This document shows positions 3,023 through 17,600 of a DNA stretch of 35,107 bases, one piece after another (the first letter of the stretch is position 1; the number at the start of each line of letters is the position of its first letter). The translations under genes and the position numbers were made by a program. The notes under the pieces were generated by a model that was not told where the DNA came from, ran no database searches, and saw only the letters and a list, made by a program, of their open reading frames with translations. The stretch spans positions 1 to 35,107 of the forward strand of contig JAPLIE010000066.1 in NCBI GenBank assembly GCA_026389265.1, given 5' to 3'. This stretch comes from Cyanobacteriota bacterium. Lineage in GTDB: Bacteria; Cyanobacteriota; Cyanobacteriia; PCC-6307; Cyanobiaceae.

Positions 3023-5164
3023 TCAGGCTCCTGGCGTCAGGAAAGAGGACGGCTTGCCGCTGTAGGTCACAACCACCCTTTTCTTCGCTCGGGTGGCCGC
3101 TACATGAAGCAGAGATCGCTCTTGCTGTTCGAACAATTGTCGGGAGACCTCATCGGGCCGCCGGTTTAGTTCCACGCGATAGGGCATCAGCTCAGCATTG
3201 AGCTCGGGAATAAACACCTGATCGAACTCAAGGCCCTTGATGCGGTGCATGGTGGCCAGGCGCAGTGAGGGATCGCTGGGATCGTCGGCTTCGTCGGCCT
3301 CGATGATGCGCACCTGGAAGCCTGCTGTTTCCAGGCCCCTGGCGAGTTGCTCAACGGCCCTATTGGTGCGGATCGTGACGCAGGTGGAGGCTAGGTTGCC
3401 GTCGACATCCCGCAGCTGCCTGAGCTTGTCTTCTAGGAAGCGCCGCTCATCGGCCGGATCCTCGAAACCCTTCACCAGCGGTTGATCGCCATGGAGGAGA
3501 GAACGGGTATCGCTGGTTGGATCACTGCCGCCATCGAGGTCATCGAAGTCGATCCCCTGAAGCACCGCCGTGGCCCATGCCCTGGTTTCCTCTGTGGTGC
3601 GGTAGTTAATGCGTAGCTTGCGGGATCGGCCGCGGACGTTGATCCCACACTGTCCCAGCACCAGAGGGCGGCCATAGATGCGTTGGTGGGGATCACCAAC
3701 TATGAAGAGATCGTCAGTATGTTCAGCTCCCGCCAGAGCCCGCAGCAGGCGAAAGGCGGCCACGTCAAAGTCCTGCGCTTCATCCACCACGATCGCCCTG
3801 TATCGAGGGGGCTGGGCTGAGGCATTCAGGCGATCGGCAGCAGCTTGCTTGGCCTCTTCAGGCTCCCACAACCCTCTTTGCCGCAGTTCGGAGCGCAGGG
3901 CATCGAACACGGGCCAGATGCTGATGCGCTTCTGACGATTCAGGCGGGTACCCCGCCCGATTCTCTTTGCGACAAGATATTCGTCCTGAGTGCTGCAACC
4001 CTGAGCCAGCACTACTTCCTTCCATTCCTCCTCGTAGAAACGCAGATCGAGGCCCAGATCGGGGTCCGCAACCAACATCGCCACCGACCATGCGGCGTCC
4101 CGCGCCTCCTTGTTGAACATCTTGATGGTGAGGCCCTGGCTCCTGAGATAGCTGCTCACCCAGGCATCGAGATGGGTGACCTCGATGCGCTGGAGCTCCT
4201 GGGGAGTGCAGATCTTCGCCAGGTTGCTGCGGATGTCGGTGGAAAGGTTTCTGGTGAAGGTGGTGAACAACACCTTGTCCCCTCTGGCTGCCTCCCCTGC
4301 CGCGAGGAAGGATCGGGCGAGCCAGCGAGCACGGTGCATCGCTGCCACGGTCTTGCCGGTGCCCGCACCGCCGAGCACGCGTACCGGTCCATTCCAGTGG
4401 CGTTCCACCAGTCGCTTCTGACTCGGATGGAGGAAGACGCGCCATTGCTCCAGCGGGGCCGAGAGAATCGCCTCAAGCTCCTCGTCATCGGTGAGCACCA
4501 CAAACTCCGCCTGGCTGTCGGGCTGGTTCAGTGCGGTATCGACATCAGTCGGATCGACCGTGGAGGGTCGTTCTTTCTCCAGCTCGGTAAGCACTTCCTC
4601 AAAGGAACGTCCATCGGCAAGCAGGATCAGCGCATCAACGCAATCAGGCGGGAGCCACTCCAGCAGCCTAGTGAGCCCGTCCTCGTTACTGATGGCGCGT
4701 AAGGAAGGCAAGAGGGCAGCAGGCACCCCCAGCTGCATCAGCTGCTCGTCGGCAATCTGAGCAAAAAGGCTGTCCGGAACTGTGGTGGAGATGGTGTCTC
4801 CGAGTGCCTTCTCAGCCCCCTCCACGTCAACGATCTGGAGGGCACCGGAGACGCGGTTCACGTGACAGGCCTTGCGGCGGGCCCAGGCATAGGCGTCGTC
4901 ATGCTTGTCGACCCATAGCAACACGTAGGTGCTGCCCTTCTCCGGTGCCCGCACGATGCAGCGATAATCCTGATCCACACGAAGCGATCGAACCTGGGGA
5001 TCCTTGCTGCCGTTGATGCGTTCGTAGTTCAGCCCCGGTGCGGTGGGTTCGTCCATGAACTGAACGATGAACTTATGCACCTTGGCTCGGCCGCGCTCGG
5101 GAAGGGTGTTTAGGGCCTTGAAGAAGCCGCGTGAGGCGGCGACGCGCAGCGCTGGTTGACTCAT
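3023..5164 (-). CDS. SF1 (UvrD-like) helicase with RelE-like N-terminal domain
   Basis: A 713-aa protein, last gene of the operon. Residues 1-100 look like a RelE/ParE-fold domain ending in WVDKHDDAYAWA. Then come SF1A helicase motifs: P-loop GGAGTGKT (265-272), TTFTRN (301-306), DEAQD (461-465), GDPHQRIYG (490-498), NYRTT (520-524), HRIKGLEF (640-647) and HVAATRAKK (687-695). It should be an ATP-driven 3'-5' DNA translocase or helicase. Its start overlaps the stop of the giant helicase (ATGA), so it is translationally coupled. This RelE-SF1 architecture occurs as free-standing genes in bacteria; a role in defence is inferred from the operon. The RelE-like part may act as a DNA- or RNA-binding module and need not be a toxin. 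Confidence 0.88.
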   Translation of the reverse strand: MSQPALRVAASRGFFKALNTLPERGRAKVHKFIVQFMDEPTAPGLNYERINGSKDPQVRSLRVDQDYRCIVRAPEKGSTYVLLWVDKHDDAYAWARRKACHVNRVSGALQIVDVEGAEKALGDTISTTVPDSLFAQIADEQLMQLGVPAALLPSLRAISNEDGLTRLLEWLPPDCVDALILLADGRSFEEVLTELEKERPSTVDPTDVDTALNQPDSQAEFVVLTDDEELEAILSAPLEQWRVFLHPSQKRLVERHWNGPVRVLGGAGTGKTVAAMHRARWLARSFLAAGEAARGDKVLFTTFTRNLSTDIRSNLAKICTPQELQRIEVTHLDAWVSSYLRSQGLTIKMFNKEARDAAWSVAMLVADPDLGLDLRFYEEEWKEVVLAQGCSTQDEYLVAKRIGRGTRLNRQKRISIWPVFDALRSELRQRGLWEPEEAKQAAADRLNASAQPPRYRAIVVDEAQDFDVAAFRLLRALAGAEHTDDLFIVGDPHQRIYGRPLVLGQCGINVRGRSRKLRINYRTTEETRAWATAVLQGIDFDDLDGGSDPTSDTRSLLHGDQPLVKGFEDPADERRFLEDKLRQLRDVDGNLASTCVTIRTNRAVEQLARGLETAGFQVRIIEADEADDPSDPSLRLATMHRIKGLEFDQVFIPELNAELMPYRVELNRRPDEVSRQLFEQQERSLLHVAATRAKKRVVVTYSGKPSSFLTPGA

Positions 5165-8100
5165 GGCTGGCTCGCGAGGACGGGGCTTGGGTGATTCTTG
5201 GAACGGAACGAGGCGAGAACCCGATCCGGAGGGGAATCGGGATGGAAGATCACCCAGCCATCCAACCAGGCTCCCAACGGCTGATCCGAGGACTCATCGT
5301 CCGGTGGACGAAGCAGGACGGCGATCTGCAGTTCAGGCCACGCCATCTCGATTTCCACCACCACCTCCCCCAGCGATCCCTCCAATTCGTAGCCGAATTC
5401 CGGTGGCCCCACCCCCAGCGGCTCCAGGCCTAGCTGCAGCGCGACCAGCAGGGGATGACATGTTCTGGCATGCCGCTCGGAGAAGGAAAGAGCTTTCGAC
5501 CACTCCGGCGAGGGTGCATCCCTTGACCTTGGCGGCATTTGATCCCACATGGCCGCAACCAGTGGGTCTGGCTCCAAGCTCGGTACAACCACACTGGTCT
5601 GATCAGCGCCGGTGCACCCTGTCGTGCTGAGCAGCATGTGGGGGAGGAACTGGAACAGATTTCCCTGGCGCAACCATTCCCGCCAGCCGATCTGCTGCTC
5701 CTTGTCGCCAACTGGCTGGACTGGATCGAAATGAAGGGCGCGGAAGCTGGCGTCGGTGCGGCGAGCCCCATGGCTTCTGAGATCGATGCAACTGAGCACA
5801 GTGAAACCTGCTGCCTGCTCGAGCCACTGACCGGCTTGTCCTTGCTCACGCTCCAGCCGCCACTCCTCCAGATGAGAAGCAAGACCGAGGCTTTCGATGG
5901 GCTCCTGCAGGGATGCTGAGATGCCGTTGCCCATGTCTTGGCCCAGCTGAGCGAGACAGAACGTGTGGGCAAGTCCTTCCCAGGCCCGCGTGCGGTTGAT
6001 CTCACTGGGCTGGCTGAGATAAGCCATGAGCAGCTGAAGGCTGTTGGATTCCTGCGCCCAGCGCAGGTCGCGCGGCAGGATCGTGCCCAACTGGTCTGAC
6101 CGAGGCTCGATCACCTCAAAACGCGACACGGGGAGCCACTGTTCCGCGAAGGCTGCCGGATCCCTGATGAAGCTGGGCACCAGCCCCTTGAGCAACCCAT
6201 TGGCGGGAAGCGGATCAGCGGGGCCATTGGGCTTGCCCACCACGTCTTCCCAGCAGAGCGCCCAGAAGCGGTAGCGCCCCGATCTCTGCAGAGCCATACG
6301 CTGGCGAACATCGGTAGCCAGACGATTGCGGTGGAAGTCCCAGCCGTCTGTATAGACGGCGATGGGCAGTCCTCCGGAGGTTGGAGTGATCAGAAAATCG
6401 CAACGGGATGGAACGTCAACTCCCTGGGCCTTGCCGATCTCGACCTGGGTTTGAACCATCCAGTTGACACCGTTCACACTGAGGTGAAAGGCCGTCTGTC
6501 CCTGCCAGGTGTCGGCTGTGAGTTTCACTGCCACTCCAGGGGGAGCAGCTTTCCCTTCACGCAGTGCGTCGATGAATTTGTCCTCCAGCTCGCTCTCCAC
6601 CTGGGTGGTGATCGTGATGCTGGTGAGGCTGCGCCTGCTGCTCTTCAGCTGCTCCCAGTGCCTGAGCAGCACAGTGAGCTGATCCAAGGCTCGGTTCTTG
6701 CTGATCCGATCTCGCTCGAATCGGCTTCGGTAGGCATAGAGGCACCGATAGCAACCGTCATTGCAACCACAGGCCTGTAGGGAGCTCCGGGAGTCTTCAA
6801 AAACAGAGCGCAGGCGTTCGCCACTGTTCTCCACCAGCTGTCGCAGGTAGCCAGTGCCACCGGGAACCGAGTCGTAGAGGTAGAGAAAGGTCTTTCGTTG
6901 GGTACCCGGTCCCTCTCCGTTGACAGAGCCGAGGGACTGGGGTTCGGTGGAGACCGCTGGCAGAAGATGATCCACCTTGCCGCTGAAGTGTTTCTTCAGG
7001 CCAAGGCTGAGGGCGGCCTGAAAGGAACTTTTGCCGGTGTCGTCCCAGAAGAGGCGATCGGGCAAGAGGAAACGCAGGGCCTCTGAGTTGAACTCCCGAT
7101 ACATGAACAGAAGCTTGCGTGCCTTGGCGTCATCGGGCTTGTCGCGGAAGCGGCAGCTATAGGCATGCTGTTTGCTGGTGGGCGGGCCAGTTAGAACCTT
7201 GCCGCAACCACTGCAGATCTCGAAACCGCGGACGCGGAACTGCTGACCAGCAATCTGATGGCCATTACCGGCAGGATTTACAGCGCCGAAATTGATTTCT
7301 CGGAAGGTTGTGCTGCCGATGAACTCCGCCCCAAAGGGAAACTCGGCGTCATCCACCGCCAGGGTGATCTCCACCCGGTTGAGGTCGGGGATGATCAGTA
7401 GCTGTCGCTGGAAGAAGGTGTTGGTGCGGTCGTCGCGGTCATCGCTGATTCGGCTAAGGGCGTCGTCGGTGGTGGCCACGACCTGTCGCAGTCGGGCCAT
7501 TTCCTTCACTTGGTGGGCGTCGCAGAAGTTGGCATCCCCACAACGCGGGCAGACCTGGTCCTTGAAACCCTGTTCCCCCTCTTGGCAGCTGTAACTGCAG
7601 ACCCTGCAGAACCGCCAGCGTTCAATCGGGTTGAGCGTCAGATCGATCTGGTCGACCTTCACACGCCGCCCCTGGGCGTAGAAAACGCCATCGGGCACCA
7701 GCTCACGAATGGCGACACTGCCTGGGCGCTGGTAACTCAGAGGCTTCAGATCCTCACTGCTCCGCCCAGCCTTGGGCTTGCGAGTCAACCGGCGCCAGAG
7801 CACCGACTTGAGAGTGACACCGGCCTCCGGAAAGGCGTAGTTAGGAAGAAAACCCTCGTCCGTCAACATCTGTAGCAGGGGCCGGTTTTCCAGCTCCTTT
7901 CGCAGATCGGCATAGGCCCGTTGCTCGCGCAGCACCTCTTCCTTCTCCTGCTTCTGAGCTTCAAGCAGGGCAGCTGGGTTGATCGACGACAGCTCGCGAA
8001 AGCGCTTGGCCAGGCGTTTCCCTTCGTTGAACAACCGCCGCCGTTCGGAAGCGAGCCCTTCAAGGCGGCCAATCAATCTCCGCTGGAAAAGCGGTGTGGC

Positions 8101-11100
8101 GTCGCCATCCGCAAGAAACTCCTCTCGGAGCTGCTCACGGCAGCGACCCTTGACGGTGTCTTCGTCGAAGAGGACAAGAAAGTCTTCGAGCAGGGCCTGC
8201 TGATGGTCGCGGGTCCATTGCAGCCAGGTGAAGGGAAACAGCTTGCGTTTGTTCTCCCACTCCTTCCCATCCACCGCATCGAGTGCGGCCTTGAGCTTGC
8301 GGGGCAGGGCCTCCACTGGGATGCCGCTCTGCACCCAGCGATCGATCGTGAAGGCGATCAGTTGGCGGCTGAGGATGGCCGCGGCGTCGAGGTAGCAGCC
8401 AGGAGGTGTGACCCTGCCCTGCAGCATCTCGGTGGGCTCGGCATAGAAATAAAGATCATGGGGAGTGCCGTTGACCACGGTGCCGACCAGGGCATTGCCA
8501 TCCCGGCGACCGGCGCGACCGATGCGCTGCAAGTAGTTCGCAGGCTCGGGGGGCACTGAGCAGAGCAGCACCGATGAGAGGTCGCCGATGTTGATGCCCA
8601 TCTCCAGCGTGGAGGTCGCCGACAGCAGGTTCGGGTGACTGCGGGGGCCGTCATGGATGAACTGATGCTCCAACCGTTCACGGTCGCTGCGTGAGAGCAG
8701 ACCGGTGTGCTCGCGAGCGATGATCCGGTTCACCTGGCCAGAGGTGTATAGACGTCGGTAGAGCGGCAATCCCCCCTGGGGATCACTTTGGTAGTGGCCG
8801 GAGCAACGTTGAACCAGGCAGGGCATCCCCTCCCAGATGGCACGCTCAGCTGGACGGATGCTTTGGCCGTCACCGCAGCAGGTGCAGCGCAGGCTGATCG
8901 GCTCGGCCGCCACGACAATGGCAGTTGGATCCAAGCCCCAGATTCGCTCGCCGTGATGGCCTGGCGGCAGCGCCTGCAAGACTCCGCCGTCTTCCAGGGC
9001 CACTACCGATGCCTCAAGGGCAACCTTCTGGAGTTCCGGCGCGCCGCAGTCACCCAGGCACTTGCTCAACCAGTGCATCGCCCAGGTGGGCCGTCCCTTG
9101 GAGTTGACCAGTTGCTCGAAGTGCCCACGGCCGCGGAGGGACGTCAGAAAGATTGGCTTATTGGACGAAGGGCCAATGTTGGGCAGGTGGGTGGTCAGCC
9201 AGAACGAATAGGTGTCGTCTCCACCACTGGCGAGGTACCTGCTTCCTTGGCCATCGGCGCCGAGGATCTCCGGCACGGGCAGAGCGCCCCGCTGGCGAAG
9301 GTGATGCAGAAAGCCCACCAGAAACTGCCGCACAGCGGCCTGATCGATGTCACGCAGCGCTTCCACCTCGTTGCGCAAGCGCTCCAACAATTCCTGGAGA
9401 AGCGGTTCGAGCCCCTCAAGGCGGATCCCGGCGGCCAGTGCACCGGCCTGCTCCACCGAAGAGCCCAGGCGAGAGCGATAGCCGAACTCGGCCATCACCT
9501 CCCACCGCAGACGCTTCTCGACGATCTCCATCAGCGGGTCGTCTGGCGCGAGGGTTGGACGGGTGCTCTGTTCGATGGCGGACCACTCGCGCAGCCATTC
9601 CAAGTCGGAGGGCAGAAAGGTGGCGACGAAGTCGACGGGGTTCGGCAGCTCCTGGCGCCAGTGATGAAGCAGAGCGCCTTGGAGAGCGGTCAGATCGAGC
9701 GGGTCCGAACCGGATGGCTCCTGATCTCGGCCATGGTGCTGAACGGTGCGGGTGAGCGCTGTGCGGAAGCTGGTTCGATAGGCACGAGCGGCAATGAAGC
9801 CGGCTCGATGGGCAGCGTCCTGGACTGAATCAGAGAAGGCGAGCAGCTTGCGATCGCCGTTGAAGCTGGAAGCAAACAGGGAAGAGGAACAGTTGCTGGT
9901 GAGGCTGGCGGCTGAGGCGCCGATCAGCAGCAGGCTCTGGTGGGCACTGCAGTAGGGGCAATCAGAACTGGATTTAAGATGGTCATTCCGATCACGGGTC
10001 GTGCAGTCGGGCACCTCGACCACCAGCAGGCTTTGACTGGAGCAGCTCTGACAACGCGCTCCCGCTACTGGGGCCTTCCGTTCTTCGCCCTTGGCGGACG
10101 GCTCCTGGATCGTGAGGCAATCCAGGCAGAACAGCCGCTCATCAGCGCTCAGGGGTGCTGCGGAGGACTTCTCACTGACCAGCGGCCTGAGGGGGAACAC
10201 GTACTGGACCAAGGGATCGCGTCCAAAGAAGGCCCGGTAGAAGTTGCGGAGGTTTCGCGCCGGATCCAGCTGACTGGCGTCCTGGTGCAACAGGGTTGAG
10301 GTCCAGCCGGTGGCGCCGCAATCGCGGCAGTGCACGACAGGTAAGTGGTGATCGCCGTCGTTGCTGTCGAGGTCATCGGAATGGAGCAGCTCCGGGCTGG
10401 AGGTCACGCTGGCCACCATCCGCTTCAGCTCCCGGAGCCAGATCTGGATGCGCAGCTGCACCCAAGGCTGGCCGCCGGGGCCGCGGGCATGGCCGATCAG
10501 TGCCAGCAGGCTTTCAAGCAGCAACACCCGGAAGGGGAAGGGGTATCGCTCGTCGATGCCGAGCTGACGAGCAAACCGCTCCAGCAGCTCCGCGAGCGAG
10601 CAGGTACCGGCGGCCTGGCGCACGAGGTTCTGCACCGCAGGCAGACGACCCAATTCGCGGCCCAGGCTGATGCGCCAGCCGGGGTCATCAATCGAACCGT
10701 TTGCCGGGGGCGTGAAGGCCGCGCCAAACCAGAGCGGTACCTGGGCGGCAAGGTAGGCACTGCGAACGGCATCAGCACTTCTGGCCTGACTGGCCCCATA
10801 GCTGCCTGGGTTGAGAACAGCCTCCTGATCGAGGCTGGGAGGCGGAACAAGCAGCAATCCTTTGAGAGGATCGGCGAAATCGGTGTCCTCAAAGAACTCA
10901 GCAGGGGTCTTGCGGTCTTCCTGGATCAGGCTGGAGCGATCAAACGTGCTCCCGAAGATCTGAGAGGCGTAGTAGAGCATCTCTGCCTGAGAATCACCGT
11001 CGCCGAGGGTGGCCGAGGTACCCACACAGATCAGCTCCTCACTGCTGCAGTGCAGGCGATCTCTGAGGCGGCGCACCAGGCAGGCCAGGTCGGTGCCCTG

Positions 11101-11850
11101 GGCTCCATCGAAGGTGTGGAACTCATCCACCACCAGGTAACGCAGCACGCTGGTTCCGTCTTCCAACCGATCGTTCTGGGCCCAGAGGCCCTGGGTGTGG
11201 GGCTGGAGCAGAAGGTAGTCGAGCTGCTTGTAGTTGGTGAGCAGGATGTCGGGCGGGGCCTTGTGCAACGTGGACCGATCTGTGATGACATGCTCAGGTC
11301 CCATGGCGATGGAGCTGACCTCCTCCTGATCGCCGATGTAGAGCCCGGCTCGTAGCCCGGCGAGGGCGGAAATGGTGTGGATGAGATGGGCAATCCGCTT
11401 GGCCTGATCGGTGGCCAGGGCATTCATCGGATAGATGAGGATCACCTTGATACCCCGTCGACCTTGCGCGTGCGCCTGGCGGCAGTGGTCGAGGCAGGGG
11501 TAGAGGAAGGCCTCGGTTTTGCCCGAGCCGGTGCCGGTGGCCACCAGGGTGTTCTGGGGGGAGCCCGGGCTGAGTCGCTCGAAGGCTTGCTCCTGATGCC
11601 GGTAGGGCGGAAAGGGCAGCTGAAGCTCCGGGAACCAGTCAGCGCGGCGGCCCTGCTGGAACGGAAGCGAAATAGAGATGTAGGGGCCTTTGACCAGCCG
11701 ATCCCGATCGGCGAGAAAGCGGTCGATCAGCCCTTCGAAGCCTGGGGTGGTGGGATGAAAGGCAGTGGTGAGAGCGTCCCTGGCGACCTGCTCCAGCTCG
11801 GCGGCGACGACAGAGGGGAGGATTGAACCGGATCCAAGGTGCGCTGACAT
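5161..11850 (-). CDS. Giant DEAD/DEAH helicase with DUF1998 module (DrmA-DrmB- or DruE-like)
   Basis: A 2229-aa SF2 protein. Residues 83-90 (YRHQEQAF) resemble a Q-motif, followed by Walker A TGTGSGKT (105-112), motif II DEFH (242-245) and TSAT (278-281). Helicase domain 2 comes after a long cysteine-bearing insert: LLAFSDSVQDAA, then QRIGRAGRRDG near residue 1110. Several C-x2-C pairs (about 507, 575-605, 990-1013, 1415-1447) suggest zinc ribbons. The DUF1998-type cluster CGCNDGCYRCLYAYR lies near 1690. About 530 residues follow, with a possible Vsr/DUF559-like nuclease segment (about 1815-1865). DISARM splits the helicase and DUF1998 parts into DrmA and DrmB; Druantia DruE is a single giant. 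This gene fits either comparison. It starts 2 nt after the GTPase stop. Confidence 0.85.
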   Translation of the reverse strand: MSAHLGSGSILPSVVAAELEQVARDALTTAFHPTTPGFEGLIDRFLADRDRLVKGPYISISLPFQQGRRADWFPELQLPFPPYRHQEQAFERLSPGSPQNTLVATGTGSGKTEAFLYPCLDHCRQAHAQGRRGIKVILIYPMNALATDQAKRIAHLIHTISALAGLRAGLYIGDQEEVSSIAMGPEHVITDRSTLHKAPPDILLTNYKQLDYLLLQPHTQGLWAQNDRLEDGTSVLRYLVVDEFHTFDGAQGTDLACLVRRLRDRLHCSSEELICVGTSATLGDGDSQAEMLYYASQIFGSTFDRSSLIQEDRKTPAEFFEDTDFADPLKGLLLVPPPSLDQEAVLNPGSYGASQARSADAVRSAYLAAQVPLWFGAAFTPPANGSIDDPGWRISLGRELGRLPAVQNLVRQAAGTCSLAELLERFARQLGIDERYPFPFRVLLLESLLALIGHARGPGGQPWVQLRIQIWLRELKRMVASVTSSPELLHSDDLDSNDGDHHLPVVHCRDCGATGWTSTLLHQDASQLDPARNLRNFYRAFFGRDPLVQYVFPLRPLVSEKSSAAPLSADERLFCLDCLTIQEPSAKGEERKAPVAGARCQSCSSQSLLVVEVPDCTTRDRNDHLKSSSDCPYCSAHQSLLLIGASAASLTSNCSSSLFASSFNGDRKLLAFSDSVQDAAHRAGFIAARAYRTSFRTALTRTVQHHGRDQEPSGSDPLDLTALQGALLHHWRQELPNPVDFVATFLPSDLEWLREWSAIEQSTRPTLAPDDPLMEIVEKRLRWEVMAEFGYRSRLGSSVEQAGALAAGIRLEGLEPLLQELLERLRNEVEALRDIDQAAVRQFLVGFLHHLRQRGALPVPEILGADGQGSRYLASGGDDTYSFWLTTHLPNIGPSSNKPIFLTSLRGRGHFEQLVNSKGRPTWAMHWLSKCLGDCGAPELQKVALEASVVALEDGGVLQALPPGHHGERIWGLDPTAIVVAAEPISLRCTCCGDGQSIRPAERAIWEGMPCLVQRCSGHYQSDPQGGLPLYRRLYTSGQVNRIIAREHTGLLSRSDRERLEHQFIHDGPRSHPNLLSATSTLEMGINIGDLSSVLLCSVPPEPANYLQRIGRAGRRDGNALVGTVVNGTPHDLYFYAEPTEMLQGRVTPPGCYLDAAAILSRQLIAFTIDRWVQSGIPVEALPRKLKAALDAVDGKEWENKRKLFPFTWLQWTRDHQQALLEDFLVLFDEDTVKGRCREQLREEFLADGDATPLFQRRLIGRLEGLASERRRLFNEGKRLAKRFRELSSINPAALLEAQKQEKEEVLREQRAYADLRKELENRPLLQMLTDEGFLPNYAFPEAGVTLKSVLWRRLTRKPKAGRSSEDLKPLSYQRPGSVAIRELVPDGVFYAQGRRVKVDQIDLTLNPIERWRFCRVCSYSCQEGEQGFKDQVCPRCGDANFCDAHQVKEMARLRQVVATTDDALSRISDDRDDRTNTFFQRQLLIIPDLNRVEITLAVDDAEFPFGAEFIGSTTFREINFGAVNPAGNGHQIAGQQFRVRGFEICSGCGKVLTGPPTSKQHAYSCRFRDKPDDAKARKLLFMYREFNSEALRFLLPDRLFWDDTGKSSFQAALSLGLKKHFSGKVDHLLPAVSTEPQSLGSVNGEGPGTQRKTFLYLYDSVPGGTGYLRQLVENSGERLRSVFEDSRSSLQACGCNDGCYRCLYAYRSRFERDRISKNRALDQLTVLLRHWEQLKSSRRSLTSITITTQVESELEDKFIDALREGKAAPPGVAVKLTADTWQGQTAFHLSVNGVNWMVQTQVEIGKAQGVDVPSRCDFLITPTSGGLPIAVYTDGWDFHRNRLATDVRQRMALQRSGRYRFWALCWEDVVGKPNGPADPLPANGLLKGLVPSFIRDPAAFAEQWLPVSRFEVIEPRSDQLGTILPRDLRWAQESNSLQLLMAYLSQPSEINRTRAWEGLAHTFCLAQLGQDMGNGISASLQEPIESLGLASHLEEWRLEREQGQAGQWLEQAAGFTVLSCIDLRSHGARRTDASFRALHFDPVQPVGDKEQQIGWREWLRQGNLFQFLPHMLLSTTGCTGADQTSVVVPSLEPDPLVAAMWDQMPPRSRDAPSPEWSKALSFSERHARTCHPLLVALQLGLEPLGVGPPEFGYELEGSLGEVVVEIEMAWPELQIAVLLRPPDDESSDQPLGAWLDGWVIFHPDSPPDRVLASFRSKNHPSPVLASQP

Positions 11851-11852
11851 GG

Positions 11853-12953
11853 CTAACTATTCCGCCGGAGAGAAATGGCCTTGGTGAACTCTCGCTTAAA
11901 GGCATCGGCAATCTCTTGATCTGTTGGTGTTGCACCTACATTATTTGAAAGCAAAGTGTAAAGAGCTGCGATATAGGCTTCTCCAAGTGCGGCAGTAATC
12001 ACACCAGCAGTCGCAGCTCCAATAGCACCGCCGGCTACGCTGCCGGCTCCTGGGATCAACTTGAGCAGGTTGCTGACGATGGTACGGCCAAGGAATGCAC
12101 CACCGGCACCACCAAGAACACTCACGACAAGCGAGGAAAGAAAACCTTCAGTAACAGGAAGTCCAAAGATCGTTGTGATCCCTGCAATCATGGTGATCTG
12201 AACAGGAATAATCGCGGCCGCATCAGCAAAGGGAATAGGAGCGGCTGCGATGCCGCCGGCTGTGACTGTTGCCGCCGCTACAGCCTGATGGGCTTGTGTT
12301 GTTTTCAAGTCCAGGTCAACCTTCTGAGCCGCTGCGAACGCTCGGCGATGGGCTTCTGGCACAAGTTGCATGGAATGCTGAACAAGGTCATTGAGCCCCA
12401 TCGGCTCAAGAACATGCCCGTCATCAAACTCCTCCCGAAGCGCTCGAACGCGGATGACATTGGTGAACTTCGGAAGGAGATCGTGAACCGTCTGCCGGAA
12501 ACCTTGGTCTGCTCGTGCCTTAGTAATCACTCCAACGACAGGAACGAAGTCAACAAGCTTCTCGACCAAGTCATGTTCTGCTTCCTCTACCCTGCGGAGG
12601 TCTTCGGCGATGCAGACCCAGGCCAGATGGATATGGGTAGCAGGGTCGACGCTTTGCCGTCGTTCCGAGATGAACTTGCGTAGCTGATCATCGGTCTCTT
12701 TGAAGTTGGCCATCTCCAACCCCCGCGTGTCAAAGATTGAGAGTGGGATGCCCTCCTTTTTGATCTCCCGTGTGCCAGGGGTTACTGGCTTTCCTACGCC
12801 AGTACGCACGAAGTCACCCTCAAAGACTGAATTGATCAAAGTGCTTTTACCCACACCACTTCGGCCAGCAATCAGAATATTGACATGGCCCCGCTCTTTC
12901 ATGGCTTGTTTGTAAGCATCCTGGATGATCTTGTGGAGGTCGAAGGTACTCAT
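11853..12953 (-). CDS. Membrane-associated P-loop GTPase (Era/IRG-like, hydrophobic DUF697-like tail)
   Basis: A 366-aa GTPase. G1 is GRSGVGKS (30-37), switch-region TPGT lies near 58-61, G3 is DTRG (75-78), and the G4 position reads TKAR (144-147) instead of the usual N/TKxD, with Asp two residues later. The C-terminal 150 residues are Ala/Gly-rich and hydrophobic, in the style of YcjF/DUF697 or IRG-like membrane-inserting tails. I start at the ATG at 12953 because it lies 4 nt after the DUF262 stop; a longer frame to 13070 would overlap that gene. GC is clearly lower than in the flanking genes (sample lines 42-53%). It is not a core DISARM gene. A membrane-acting effector or sensor role is inferred. 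Confidence 0.85.
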   Translation of the reverse strand: MSTFDLHKIIQDAYKQAMKERGHVNILIAGRSGVGKSTLINSVFEGDFVRTGVGKPVTPGTREIKKEGIPLSIFDTRGLEMANFKETDDQLRKFISERRQSVDPATHIHLAWVCIAEDLRRVEEAEHDLVEKLVDFVPVVGVITKARADQGFRQTVHDLLPKFTNVIRVRALREEFDDGHVLEPMGLNDLVQHSMQLVPEAHRRAFAAAQKVDLDLKTTQAHQAVAAATVTAGGIAAAPIPFADAAAIIPVQITMIAGITTIFGLPVTEGFLSSLVVSVLGGAGGAFLGRTIVSNLLKLIPGAGSVAGGAIGAATAGVITAALGEAYIAALYTLLSNNVGATPTDQEIADAFKREFTKAISLRRNS

Positions 12954-12957
12954 CGCT

Positions 12958-14637
12958 TTAGGCTGTGTGGGAAGGCGCAGTAGCTGAAGCGACGGCGGAG
13001 GCCAACAGCTTGAGCCTTTGGGAGAGGAAGCCCTCATAGTCATCAATCCATTGAGCCGCGTCAGGTCCATGGGGGATGAGATGACTTTTCAAGACCTTGG
13101 CCATGGGGAAATGCTCCTCTGCGCGCATCTCCTCCATGTACTCGGAAGGAGCCTGGCAACTGATGCGTTGGTTGGTGGTGCTGTCAATCAGGCAGCGGTT
13201 AAGCACCACGTCACGATGGCGAGCTTCAATGCCGCGGTTTTCCAGAAACTTGGCGGGAAAGATGTGGTGATCGTCGATGCCACTGCTCATCAGCAGCTGG
13301 TGGTTGAGCACGGCGCGGCTGTGGAAATCAAGGGGAGCGGTACTCGAAGTGAGGATCAGGCAGATCGTTGCTCGGTAGAGGGAGCGCTGGCGAGGTGTGA
13401 CTTCGCGCAGAAGATCAGGATTGAACTGAAAGGTTCGAACGGTTTCAGGGGGCTGGGACTGGGGATCGTGGAACCATGCGATCAGTTCATTCACATCCCG
13501 GGTGCTCTGGGTGTTGGGCGCGTTTTCGTAGGCCTGGCTGAATACGGAGCACCAGAACCAGCGACGAACTTGCTCTCTCTGAGCTCCAATGGCAACCCCC
13601 TTTGATTCATCGACCCAGGCAAAAGCCGCTGCCATCGGAGGCAGCATGGTGGCGTAGGGCAACCAACGGGGTTGGAGTACCCAGCAATCGTCGGCCAGAA
13701 GCGTGAGGGAACGATCGAGCCCCTTCACCACTCGTGGCCACCAGTGGGCCACGGTGTCGGCGTCGAGGTTGAGTACATCGCCGCGTTTGCAGCTGCGGGC
13801 CTGGCCGCCAGCCAAGGCGATGGCCATCAGCAGGTAGTAGGGATCAACATCGAACCGGTTGATCAACGGGTGCTCTGAGCGGGCCTGCTCCCAGAGATCT
13901 CGGAGGCGAATCTCTTGGCTCCAGAAGCGAGCAGTGAGCAGCTCGAACACGCTGAGTTTCACGCCCGTGCGGTTGAGCGTCTCGAAGATGGTGCACAGGG
14001 CTGCTGGCTCGGTTTCGGCAGAGAGGGTGACGACTGGAAAGTCGTAGCGCTCGAAGGCATCGATCCAGTCGCCTCGGATCTTCAGGAGTTCCTTCTGGAG
14101 CTGCTCGCGCTCATCGGCGGCGCGGGTGGCCACCACGGTGAGCATCCAGTTGAGATATCCACCGGTACCGCTTTTCAATACGGCGAGTGGCAACAGAAGG
14201 TGCTCGGCCTGGTAGCTGGGATCTTCTCGCCGCTTGAACGCCGATCGAGTGATACGCAGGTAGCTGATGGCGTCTTCGAAGTCCTCGCCTTCAATCAGCT
14301 TCTGCAGGCTGAGGTAATAGCGATGATCGCCCTTTCCGTAGAAGGCCTGGTAGAGGGAGGTGAGGCGCTGCTGGCCATCGAGCACTAGGAAAGTGTGATG
14401 TTCGCTGGCGGCGGGCGCACCCTCGAAAGCACGGGCCGAAAAGACCCGTTCCCGATCACGCACACGCAGGATGCTGCCGGCGGGATAGCTGTTGGCGATC
14501 GAGACGATCAAAGCCTGAGTGGCGCTGGGCTCCCAGACGAAATCGCGCTGGAAGTCGGGCAACACCATGTCGCCGGCTTCAATGAGAGCGAGCAAATCCA
14601 GGAGGCGCTTCGGGTTGGTGTCTTCGTAGATGGTCAC
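12958..14637 (-). CDS. DUF262 (ParB/GmrS-like) protein with C-terminal HNH-type nuclease motif
   Basis: A 559-aa protein. The N-terminal DUF262 fold has PDFQRDFVW (27-35) and the hallmark DGQQR (87-91), the nucleotide-hydrolysing ParB-like site of GmrS, SspE and BrxU. The C-terminal domain carries DDHHIFP (about 453-459) and a later LNRCLIDSTTNQRIS segment, the His/Asn pattern of DUF1524/HNH endonucleases. The family members named above are modification-sensing or modification-compatible restriction enzymes. Its start overlaps the methylase stop (ATGA) and it ends 4 nt before the GTPase. Sitting directly after a DNA methylase, it could be the restricting partner or an accessory type IV-like nuclease. 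Confidence 0.87.
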   Translation of the reverse strand: MTIYEDTNPKRLLDLLALIEAGDMVLPDFQRDFVWEPSATQALIVSIANSYPAGSILRVRDRERVFSARAFEGAPAASEHHTFLVLDGQQRLTSLYQAFYGKGDHRYYLSLQKLIEGEDFEDAISYLRITRSAFKRREDPSYQAEHLLLPLAVLKSGTGGYLNWMLTVVATRAADEREQLQKELLKIRGDWIDAFERYDFPVVTLSAETEPAALCTIFETLNRTGVKLSVFELLTARFWSQEIRLRDLWEQARSEHPLINRFDVDPYYLLMAIALAGGQARSCKRGDVLNLDADTVAHWWPRVVKGLDRSLTLLADDCWVLQPRWLPYATMLPPMAAAFAWVDESKGVAIGAQREQVRRWFWCSVFSQAYENAPNTQSTRDVNELIAWFHDPQSQPPETVRTFQFNPDLLREVTPRQRSLYRATICLILTSSTAPLDFHSRAVLNHQLLMSSGIDDHHIFPAKFLENRGIEARHRDVVLNRCLIDSTTNQRISCQAPSEYMEEMRAEEHFPMAKVLKSHLIPHGPDAAQWIDDYEGFLSQRLKLLASAVASATAPSHTA

Positions 14638-17600
14638 GTCGCCACCTCCGCCCTCTCAAAGAACTCCCACGCCGCTCGATAATCCTCCACCCGATCACAC
14701 AGGCTCCAGGGCGCCTCATAGCTGATCGTGCGCTCCACCGGCCCACCTGGCAGAGTGTCATCGAGGATCGTTCGCGTGAAGGTGCCGATGGTTTCGTGCT
14801 GGATGTCTTCCCAGCCGGTGGTCCTGGCGGCTCCGCGGCCCGTTCCCTTTCGGGGGAAGCCGACGCCGGTGAGGCCCTTGCTGGCAGTGAACACGATGCG
14901 ACCGTTTTGGTCGTACCAAGTGTCGCGTTCGTATTGCTGCATCACCGGGAATTGCACCCGGTAAATGGTGATCAGTTCCTCCAGGCTGAGGCCGAGGGCC
15001 TGGGCCACAAGCACATCGATCTCCACCAAGGCTTGACGGCGCATGAAATCGGTGCGCAGAGCGCATTCCCGCTGCCAAGTAGGTGTGAGGTTGGTGAAGA
15101 AGCTATTTGGCAAGCGGGAGTCGTCTTTGGACCAGCGTTGCTGGCTGAAGGAATGATCCCAGCATTCGGTCCAGAGCTTGGCATAAAGAGAGGTGAGGCA
15201 GTTAAGTACTACAATTCTCGAAAGAGAGGATGAGCCTGTAGCCATCAAGGGGAAAAGCCTAAAAATATCAATACTCAGATTGCTCTTGCCCGTGCTCCTA
15301 AGATAAAAGTCACCAATCAGCGAAGAAGAGAAGAGACAGAAGCTGTTCAGGGCAGAGAGACTTTTGAAACCAATTGAGTAGCAAGTGTCGATGTGTGCAA
15401 TGCCTGGTGTAATCACAGCTGATATTAGCGTGCGCTCGCCAGTTTGAGAAAGCATTTTCCTGGCAATAATCCTATATTCGTCGAGCAAAAGACTCTTCCA
15501 TTTTGTGATTGGCGAACGCGCTCTATACTCCGCTCGATCAAGTAGCACCTGATTTGAACCCCTTGGCAAATAGTTGTCTGCAATGCTTAGCAGATCTAAG
15601 CAGTCGTAGTCACTATTTAATACGCAGGCTTGGCGGGGTGTCTTGTAGAGAGGTGTGCAAATATAGATACAGGGTCCGGACAAAACTAGGCCCTCTGGGC
15701 TGCTTGGAAATTCAGAGCCTCGCTTAATAGTACCGTCCTTTTGTCTTTCGTGCTCAATCCACATGACGGATGAATCCAGGGATACAAGATCGTGCCGATC
15801 TGGAAAATCAGCAATCTTCTTTAGAACAGAAAGCAGTTGCTCTGAGTGAAGTACTGGTAGCCTTGCGGCATTGAAAGGTGTTCCTGGCTCGTCATAGAGA
15901 GATGCAAAGAGACCAAGAGATTCCATATTTACATTTATTACTCTTGAAGGATGCCCCCTCAGCTCCCATCTGCCATTCAAGTCCTTAATTCCTGGAAGAT
16001 CAAGTCTGTCAGCCGATTGAAAACACCCGTCAAGTGTAGATGCAGCAAACAAGTTTGCTATTGAGAGGAAGCTATGCTGCTGCACCCCCTGGCGCTCCTG
16101 GCCATAGATATTAATGCTATACTTTACGTGATGATCTACTTCCGGAAAAAGACTTAGCTCATTCTGAAACTGACAATGAAGGGCCAGTTTCTTGTAAAGG
16201 CTTTGCCTTAGAATTCCACCTTTTGCATCATCATAAACTCCTTCAGGATGCAGGAAGCCGCAAACGCCCCTTGTTGAATTTAGGCGCCAAGCTTGCGGAA
16301 GGAAGCATTTGTAGAGGTTGGCCTTGCTACCTTCAAGCAATGGATAGTTCTGCAGGGCATTTAGAAATGCCTTGCTACCGACCTGCCCCGCGTATTCCTC
16401 CAAGTAGGCATCCTTCAGGTTGGGATACGCCTTAAAGGCGTCGGCTCGCCGCTGTACCAACTCGCTAGCGCTCACCTTGCGGATCAGCACCATCGGATCC
16501 GCATCACCGATCACACCCTTCTCCTCCCACTCCACCTTCAGCCAGGGGGGATTCCCCACGATCAGATCGAAGCCCCCGTCCGGGCCGCCCAGCAGATCGG
16601 CGAACTCCAGATCCCAGTGCAGCGGCCGGATCCGGGCGGTGATGGCTTCCACAGCCCTCAGCCGCTCGATTTCTTCCAGCAGCTTCGCCTTGTTCACGTA
16701 GCCGTGGCGGTCGTTGAAATCCACCGCCAGTTGCTTCGGCTGGGTGTCGGGCAGCAGCTGCAGCTGCTCTTCCTCGCCATCCAGCACCGATTCGATGTCC
16801 CCCAGCACGCAGCTCAAATCGTTGAGCCACTCCTCCCGGCTCGGCAGCAGTGCCGCCTGCTCCAGCGGCCAGAACCACAATGCACACCAGTAGTCCATCG
16901 CCAACTTCAGCCGCAGCCGGGCATTGGCATTGGCGATGCCCACACCAGCCACCTCCTGGGCCTGGATGCGGTCTTTCAAGCTCAGCGGTTTCCATTCCAG
17001 GCCTGCCTCCGCCTGCGGTTCTCCCCATACCGGCAGTGGATCTGTTGTGCGTTCTCGGATCTGCGCTAGTTGCTCGGCCCACGCGCGCATCAGGCCATCG
17101 GCGATCCGGCTGAGCCGCTGCAGGCGCCGGAGCTCCTGGGGGCTGAAGGGAGCCACAGCAAAGCGCTTCTGCCACTGCTTGATCGTCTCCACCTCCTGAG
17201 GAACCAAGGCCTTGATCACCTTGTCGGCCTTGAGGGCCATCCCCGGATCGGGCAGCAGGAAATGGAAAATGGCGTCGTCTGGAAGTTCCTCTTCCCAGGC
17301 CAGCTCCTGGGGCGCCTGCTCATGCCACAACTTGGCCGGCTTGCCCTTCTTGCCTTCCTCGGGCAGTTGATGCAGGCGGACGATCTGTCGCCGGGCGCCC
17401 ACCAGGGAGTTACCGCAGATCAGCTGCTGGCCAAACCAGGGCACGAAGGCACGCCCCTGCTCCGGTTGGTAGATGCTGTTCAGCCACAGGCTTACCTCGG
17501 CCAGCTCGATCGCCACCGGGTTGAGATCCACGCCGAACACATTGCGATCGGCCAGCCGCATCTTCACCTTCTGCAGCTCATTGGCAAACTTCTCATGGGG

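Follow-up and report, generated by a model that had tools for sequence, protein, structure and literature searches.

A probable exchangeable target-recognition cassette of standing low GC in the ArmB methylase of a cyanobacterial ARMADA Type II operon

Introduction

A block of low GC within armB, the adenine methylase gene of a putative ARMADA Type II operon from a member of the Cyanobiaceae, is very probably an exchangeable target-recognition cassette. The cassette appears to have been replaced in this copy, and its low GC appears to be a standing property of such cassettes rather than a trace of the replacement. The DNA analysed, here called the window, is a whole contig of 35,107 bases. Homologous loci from other genomes are given L numbers.

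How ARMADA distinguishes its own DNA from that of phages is not explained in the available text of the preprint on the system (Bell et al., 2025; PMC12458937). A single operon backbone could accommodate many self-marks if two recognition segments are swapped in ArmB. In that case, natural E. coli alleles differing in just one of the two segments could be used to assign each segment to a part of the methylation motif.

The armB gene and its operon

The operon runs on the minus strand from 22497 to 3023 in the order armA, armB, GmrSD_N, DUF697 GTPase, armC, armD (Table 1). It is filed under ARMADA Type II, a phage-defence system, an assignment suggested by the fourth gene and the gene order. The armA-armB-armC-armD order of that type is present, with two further genes between armB and armC, and so is an ArmC in which helicase and DUF1998-type zinc domain share a single chain (DEAD at 84-283, Helicase_C at 1043-1116 and MZB at 1635-1704 of 2229 aa). 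ArmA, ArmB, ArmC and ArmD are 44, 45, 37 and 44% identical in the best tblastn pieces to those of E. coli ATCC 8739, a strain used in the ARMADA preprint (PMC12458937). For ArmB the 45% extends over 1634 aa (locus L113), and the armC query also matches the adjacent Druantia helicase of that strain. For the RelE-like N-terminal domain of ArmD in that type, Pfam gives no match in ArmD of either the window or ATCC 8739, in both of which about 240 residues precede the helicase. The listed frame of the DUF697 GTPase begins at 13070; an internal start at 12953, giving 366 aa, agrees in length with the L005 homologue of 363 aa.

In E. coli NCTC 12900, defence by ARMADA Type II needs all four genes and the NPPW motif of ArmB (PMC12458937). 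Type IIG enzymes carry a nuclease fused to the methylase, and ISP enzymes a nuclease and a helicase. A Pfam-type domain search found no nuclease or helicase model within the 1646-aa ArmB, its best PADLOC models carry type IIG names, and it matches no NCBIfam family at E 0.001, PglX (NF033452) included. BREX was rejected on the missing match to that PglX family. DISARM was rejected as well, since no separate drmB (DUF1998) gene stands beside drmA, the helicase and zinc domain share the 2229-aa chain, and the DrmD model NF038317 scores 350.8 bits against a cut-off of 610.

Table 1. Features of the window, with positions counted from its first base
Feature	Position	Strand	Basis or remark
armA, SNF2/BrxHII-like helicase, 973 aa	19576..22497	-	homology
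armB, PglX-like N6-adenine methylase of ARMADA Type II (putative), 1646 aa	14634..19574	-	open frame, homology
NPPW catalytic motif, residues 1008-1011	16542..16553	-	invariant in alignment of 72
low-GC block, residues 1069-1464	15183..16370	-	GC3 change-point and GC profile
variable segment A, residues 1130-1325, end of methylase fold and first recognition part (predicted)	15600..16187	-	exchange unit, Escherichia and cyanobacteria
middle spacer, residues 1326-1375	15450..15599	-	nucleotide identity 79-98% in 16/17 Escherichia alleles
variable segment B, residues ~1376-1485, in HsdS-like domain (predicted)	15120..15449	-	Escherichia and cyanobacteria exchange, fold
conserved right flank, residues 1501-1575	14850..15074	-	85-95% to 10/11 Cyanobiaceae-type homologues
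GmrSD_N (DUF262) protein of 559 aa, in the armB-armC junction	12958..14637	-	homology
DUF697 GTPase, 366 aa, between armB and armC	11853..12953	-	homology; probable start
armC, YprA-like helicase, 2229 aa, DEAD and MrfA Zn-binding domain in one chain	5161..11850	-	homology
armD, UvrD-family helicase, 713 aa	3023..5164	-	homology

Composition of the low-GC block

The stretch 15190-16350 has a GC content of 45.7%, and the whole window 62.8%. Of the 33947 windows of 1161 bp scanned along it, 42 were at or below 45.7%, all of them around the block, with the minimum of 45.5% at 15202. Windows of this size away from the block average 63.8% (sd 3.4), the lowest being 53.3% at 11822. Third-codon GC places the change-points of armB at residues 1069-1464 (16370-15183), with 2-lnL intervals of 1063-1092 for the left border and 1456-1475 for the right, and GC3 is 0.44 within these borders vs 0.78 in the rest of the gene. 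In 100 permutations, for which the grid was coarser than for the real data, the statistic reached at most 15.7, compared with the observed 2dlnL of 158.5. The initial annotation had described a GC drop inside one open frame, at residues 1075-1461 and C-terminal to NPPW, and the drop, the frame (19574-14634), the borders and the place after residues 1008-1011 are all confirmed.

A switch of this kind could also arise if an assembly chimera or contamination had fused two genes. The assembly gives some grounds for suspicion: it has 214 contigs, is 3% contaminated and includes a second ARMADA elsewhere, on a different contig. However, the frame is open across both borders, the block aligns in register with the family, and the pattern recurs in complete E. 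coli genomes, which leaves this explanation with almost no probability.

Predicted fold of the block

A predicted model of ArmB residues 560-1646 (pLDDT 87.3, pTM 0.83) has as its top matches BrxX (Z 21.4, rmsd 5.4, 531 aligned) and CamA (Z 20.9, rmsd 5.7, 478 aligned), which are tied. A model of residues 1060-1530 (pLDDT 88.1, pTM 0.84) matches M.BseCI (Z 16.4, rmsd 7.1, 329 aligned), CamA (Z 15.5, rmsd 4.5, 342 aligned), M.TaqI (Z 13.9, rmsd 4.2, 283 aligned) and PglX (Z 12.8, rmsd 4.6, 336 aligned). Residues ~1252-1507 also match the recognition domain of the PacII specificity subunit (HsdS), with Z 9.2, rmsd 3.6 and 157 aligned. L047 and three loci from genomes with G numbers were left out of the structure alignments. 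A PDB sequence search with the ArmB alignment gave no match at E 1.

Type I methylase subunits match residues ~1061-1244 of the predicted model, and segment A therefore starts in the distal methylase fold. Segment B is placed by the model inside the HsdS-like recognition domain, at approximately residues 1252-1507, the fold borders being drawn from alignment end points only. The predicted models thus carry a recognition-domain fold C-terminal to NPP[YFW], as in adenine methylases with this motif, and the proposal that the target-recognition domain maps to the block agrees with the matches to M.BseCI, CamA, M.TaqI, PglX/BrxX and the HsdS domain. Fold and conservation together support the low-GC block as the target-recognition region of ArmB, and it is probably the part of the methylase which chooses the DNA site. 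Segments A and B may read different bases, as the fold and their exchange suggest.

Exchange in Escherichia

The armB gene of L053 is matched by 518 of 5426 E. coli genomes, and at least 80% of it is covered in 484. Seventeen Escherichia alleles were compared, namely L053 and 16 picked down the ranking among the 60 matches listed; they were chosen to span that ranking, and counts of types among them are not frequencies. Their nucleotide identity is 92-100% upstream of the block and 89-100% downstream, and 50-83% within it, apart from one pair at 99%. At a single-linkage threshold of 88%, segment A falls into 8 types and segment B into 11, and these occur in 16 combinations.

Single pairs show the units of exchange directly. 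Over residues 1-1325 a single nucleotide separates L116 from L117; the two have 13 differences in the spacer and 187 in B. L113 and L053 are identical in B and have 242 differences in A, while L116 and L118 have backbones 94% identical in nucleotides, with A at 60% and B at 95%. Segments A (residues 1130-1325) and B (residues 1378-1485 in these alleles) swap independently in Escherichia. In L123 (E. coli 2D), residues ~1010-1485 have been replaced entirely by DNA of 33-42% GC whose left border adjoins NPPW, and the rest of the gene is on average about 97% identical to the other E. coli alleles. The spacer is replaced here too (47-53%), and it is also divergent in the window copy. Domain exchange, which had been proposed for the window gene by analogy with type IIG, ISP and related methylases, is thus demonstrated in the ArmB family, most cleanly in E. 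coli.

These alleles bear on an alternative explanation, in which there is no exchange and the block just evolves faster in place, its AT-richness coming from divergence. At the family level this is contradicted, both by the single nucleotide separating L116 and L117 before their 187 differences in B and by the near-identical B of L116 and L118 on different backbones.

Homologues in cyanobacteria and the window copy

The family alignment contains 76 sequences: the window, 72 full-length members of the 80 loci that ranked highest among 364 candidates (the other 8 were incomplete and were excluded), and L102, L107 and L108. Against the closest homologue, L002, identity of ArmB in 75-residue windows is 72-92% over residues 226-1050, 68% at 1051-1125, 35-51% over 1126-1500, and 89% at 1501-1575. 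The last 71 residues are 62% identical and the N-terminal 150 residues 55-59%. The collapse, at ~1126-1500, is slightly shifted from the GC block. The expectation that identity would fall in the block and nowhere else holds for the part of the protein C-terminal to NPPW, but not for the N-terminal 150 residues, which are also variable. The right flank is 72% identical to that of Prochlorococcus L007. Within the block, the window ArmB is hardly nearer to Cyanobium-type homologues than to those of Nostoc or Leptolyngbya. The most discordant ArmB pairs have backbones 86-97% and blocks 47-62% identical (e.g. L046/L064, 96.8 and 54.3%), and at the opposite extreme are pairs such as L005/L033, with a backbone of 45% and a block of 59%.

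The cyanobacterial relatives show reshuffling like that of Escherichia. Identities in A and B are 84 and 47% for L005/L108, 82 and 48% for L003/L004, 86 and 53% for L006/L008, and 52 and 69% for L002/L108.

For the window copy, the backbone tree joins the window and L002 (SH-aLRT 99) with a window end branch of 0.12, and this branch is 1.26 on the A tree and 1.22 on the B tree. The pairing with L002 is rejected by B (AU p 0.0006) but not by A (p 0.33), and a single clade of the twelve Cyanobiaceae-type sequences is rejected by neither A (p 0.156) nor B (p 0.125). Among these twelve, four of which were assigned to the family by name, mean identity in A is lowest for the window (48%, followed by L007 at 49%), as it is in the spacer (38%, the next value being 47%). 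In B the window is second lowest (43%; L007, 42%), and its right flank is ordinary (87%). The window has long branches on A and B, and part of its divergence may be fast change in place. We consider that the whole region (A, spacer and B) of the window was probably replaced since its split from the closest known relative. The swap that had been proposed for this gene is supported by B, which rejects the backbone pairing, and not by A, which does not reject it.

The result for segment A is also what evolution in place would predict. Against it, B rejects the group of six joined by the A tree (p 0.0007), and a second group, of four sequences whose backbones are 83-90% alike, is rejected by A (p 5.6e-5) as well as by B (p 0.008). 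The two groups were picked post hoc, and the four are not a supported backbone clade.

A GC dip common to the family

The initial annotation took the dip to record directly one recent import of the entire region from a donor of lower GC. Against this, block GC3 is below backbone GC3 in all 76 aligned sequences (mean -0.19), and GC at four-fold sites (GC4) in 75 of 76 (mean -0.24), Prochlorococcus L007 being without a GC4 dip. Backbone GC3 ranges from 0.27 (Prochlorococcus) to 0.94 (Billgrantia), and block GC3 tracks it across the 76 sequences with a slope of 0.91 (r 0.88) and a near-constant offset. The dip is present whatever the GC of the host, and it is therefore no clock for the swap; dating the swap by GC was rejected for this reason.

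Some features of the window do favour a recent import. Its dip is on the deep side (dGC4 -0.43, rank 5 of 76, z -1.8; GC3 rank 8, z -1.6) and takes in both the spacer and the segment before A, residues 1061-1125, whose dip ranks 4 of 76. Its block is among the most divergent of the twelve Cyanobiaceae-type sequences and its backbone is not; E. coli L123 provides an actual example, with a block of 33-42% GC in a gene otherwise 97% identical; and segment A of L032 (KSB1) is closer to the window (53%) than its backbone is (45%). However, the dips of L002 and L019 are comparable in depth. A search with the block in 386 cyanobacterial genomes gave 11 matching genomes, its own included, and the best other match (49%) lies in the second ARMADA of the same assembly. 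Among plasmids, 30 records match, the best at 45%, and among phages there was no match; no donor was found in these searches. Whole-block identity exceeds backbone identity in none of the 30 best of 75 homologues. A relative with a backbone nearly identical to that of the window, and hence a sister with a different block, was not found, the closest backbone being about 80%. The claim of recency is not borne out by these results, and we think a recent import unlikely, while giving it more weight than any other alternative.

In 50-residue windows, GC4 dips between residues 1051 and 1500 and is lowest at 1151-1200 and 1351-1450, which lie within the exchange segments A and B. The GC4 offset is related to diversity in E. 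coli (rho -0.64, standardised beta -0.92) more than to conservation in the family (rho 0.37, standardised beta 0.11), and the variable N-terminal windows (51-150, 27-29% identity) have an offset of only -0.04. These last two results speak against change in place. Outside the block the GC4 offset does correlate with conservation (rho 0.62), as change in place would predict, and therefore divergence itself may account for part of the dip; one backbone window of the window copy, 501-550, has an offset of -0.27. With the evidence from alleles and trees, we regard the absence of exchange as very improbable.

A control was made with PglX of BREX, in which 23 of 30 loci were over the family cut-off and 4 of the 23 were dropped as short, leaving 19. 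GC3 of the recognition domain is lower in 19 of 19, although several low-GC genes differ by just 0.00-0.04. GC4 is lower in all 10 genes whose backbone GC4 exceeds 0.4 (mean -0.26); of the 9 others, from AT-rich hosts, 4 are lower (mean of the nine +0.02). The genome of the window also carries a BREX-type PglX homologue of its own (L164, G000:C70, ~36.6-40.1 kb), which scores 514.7 bits with its frame neighbours, over the cut-off, and has GC3 of 0.45 in the recognition region vs 0.69.

The dip in 19 of 19 PglX genes, like the near-constant GC3 offset (76 of 76, slope 0.91) in ArmB, would also fit selection that acts independently of exchange and favours AT-rich synonymous codons in the recognition region, either to slow translation or to keep the mRNA open. 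However, the dip is shallower in the spacer, where there is less exchange, and exchange explains this better than a codon rule for the whole domain would. In addition, PglX genes of AT-rich hosts have no GC4 dip, although this would fit a mutational floor. Codon selection as the explanation is therefore given a slim chance.

A model for cassette exchange

In the reading that we prefer, an exchangeable cassette with a standing low GC, the conserved flanks (from about NPPW on one side, residues 1501-1575 on the other) and the middle spacer would let homologous recombination act. Recombination could then replace the whole region, A alone or B alone, with the remaining gene unchanged. Each swap would change the DNA site which ArmB methylates as self, and ArmA, ArmC and ArmD would then spare that methylated site, so that a strain might acquire a different self-mark while keeping the same enzymes. 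In this gene, A, spacer and B would have been replaced together at some time after the split from the closest known relative, and it may carry the new methylation mark that the initial annotation proposed.

Low GC is a standing property of the cassettes, probably because they circulate and persist as divergent alleles. The AT shift may come from circulation in an AT-rich pool, from a lack of GC-biased conversion between unlike alleles, or from codon selection. A more far-reaching version of the model would make a synonymous AT shift general to methylase cassettes: flanks would recombine and keep their GC by GC-biased conversion, cassettes barred from heteroduplex formation would be left to AT-biased mutation, and ArmB would be a two-slot combinatorial case. 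We offer this as a speculation and think it rather improbable. If true, the exchange units of ArmB would be readable directly from GC at four-fold sites, and flanks and cassettes would form a natural paired experiment on bacterial GC-biased gene conversion. In any case, a GC dip in the recognition region of such a methylase must not alone count as proof of recent transfer.

The armB-armC junction

Downstream of armB, armC was found in 60 of the 80 loci (the best 80 of 364), and in one of these, L061, its start could not be placed. In the other 59, the two genes are within 57 nt of each other in 12 and 0.7-9.5 kb apart in 47, a few of these gaps holding no sizeable frame. Plus-strand frames of 220 aa or more between armB and armC number 89, spread over 38 loci. 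The PADLOC families listed for them include ZorA and ZorB (6 members each) and GajA, AriA and AbiLi (6 each), and the Pfam families listed include UvrD-helicase (5), GmrSD_N (3), Dynamin_N (3) and MMR_HSR1 (3); apolipoprotein-type matches are surely spurious. The GmrSD and GTPase pair of the window (11853-14637) recurs in L005 at 79 and 74% identity. By sequence homology, then, the junction often appears to hold other defence genes, and this variable stretch is a place to look for them.

Two further loci were noted. The same assembly has a second ARMADA locus (L102, G000:C144, 6862-19998), whose ArmB, 60% identical to that of the window, lies very near the ArmB of Synechococcus sp. GreenBA-s (L005) in the backbone tree; the locus may be a paralogue or binning contamination. 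In L109 (G022:C1, 5174-10116), armB lies in two frames corresponding to query residues ~6-511 and 512-1643, the latter interrupted by a single in-frame stop within the matched range, and may be a split gene, a decayed copy or a sequencing error.

Comparison with known systems

ARMADA Type II has the same four genes in the same order as the window operon, which differs by its two extra genes between armB and armC (Bell et al., 2025; PMC12458937). The preprint describes a strict gene order, and in its available text no variable stretch between armB and armC is mentioned ('inserted between' and 'accessory' each occur 0 times). Nor is a recognition domain or its exchange discussed there, 'TRD' occurring 0 times in the main text and 'ArmB' 4 times (PMC12458937). 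Among the papers listed on the exchange of recognition domains, on the methylomes of YeeA and on reduced GC in such domains, nothing on ArmB appeared, and where a methylation motif of such an enzyme was sought in PMC6329791, the passages found concern only DISARM in Nitrospirae.

PglX/BrxX of BREX, which shares the top of the predicted fold list with CamA, also shares the GC3 dip in its recognition domain with ArmB. In the available text on BrxX, this domain is the most variable part of the protein, consists of two alpha/beta subdomains and comprises 187 aa (651-837) (PMC11341690; PMC11842806), whereas the variable region of ArmB is about 370 aa long and falls into two exchange units. The predicted recognition-region fold is likewise that of M.BseCI, CamA and M.TaqI, but their matched chains have ~380-580 residues, compared with 1646 aa and three helicase partners for ArmB.

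The manner of exchange resembles that of HsdS and the domain movement described in H. pylori, in which two recognition segments reassort through recombination at conserved flanks as they do in ArmB (PMC3983042). HsdS is a separate subunit with two tandem recognition domains, whereas the two segments of ArmB share one chain with the methylase.
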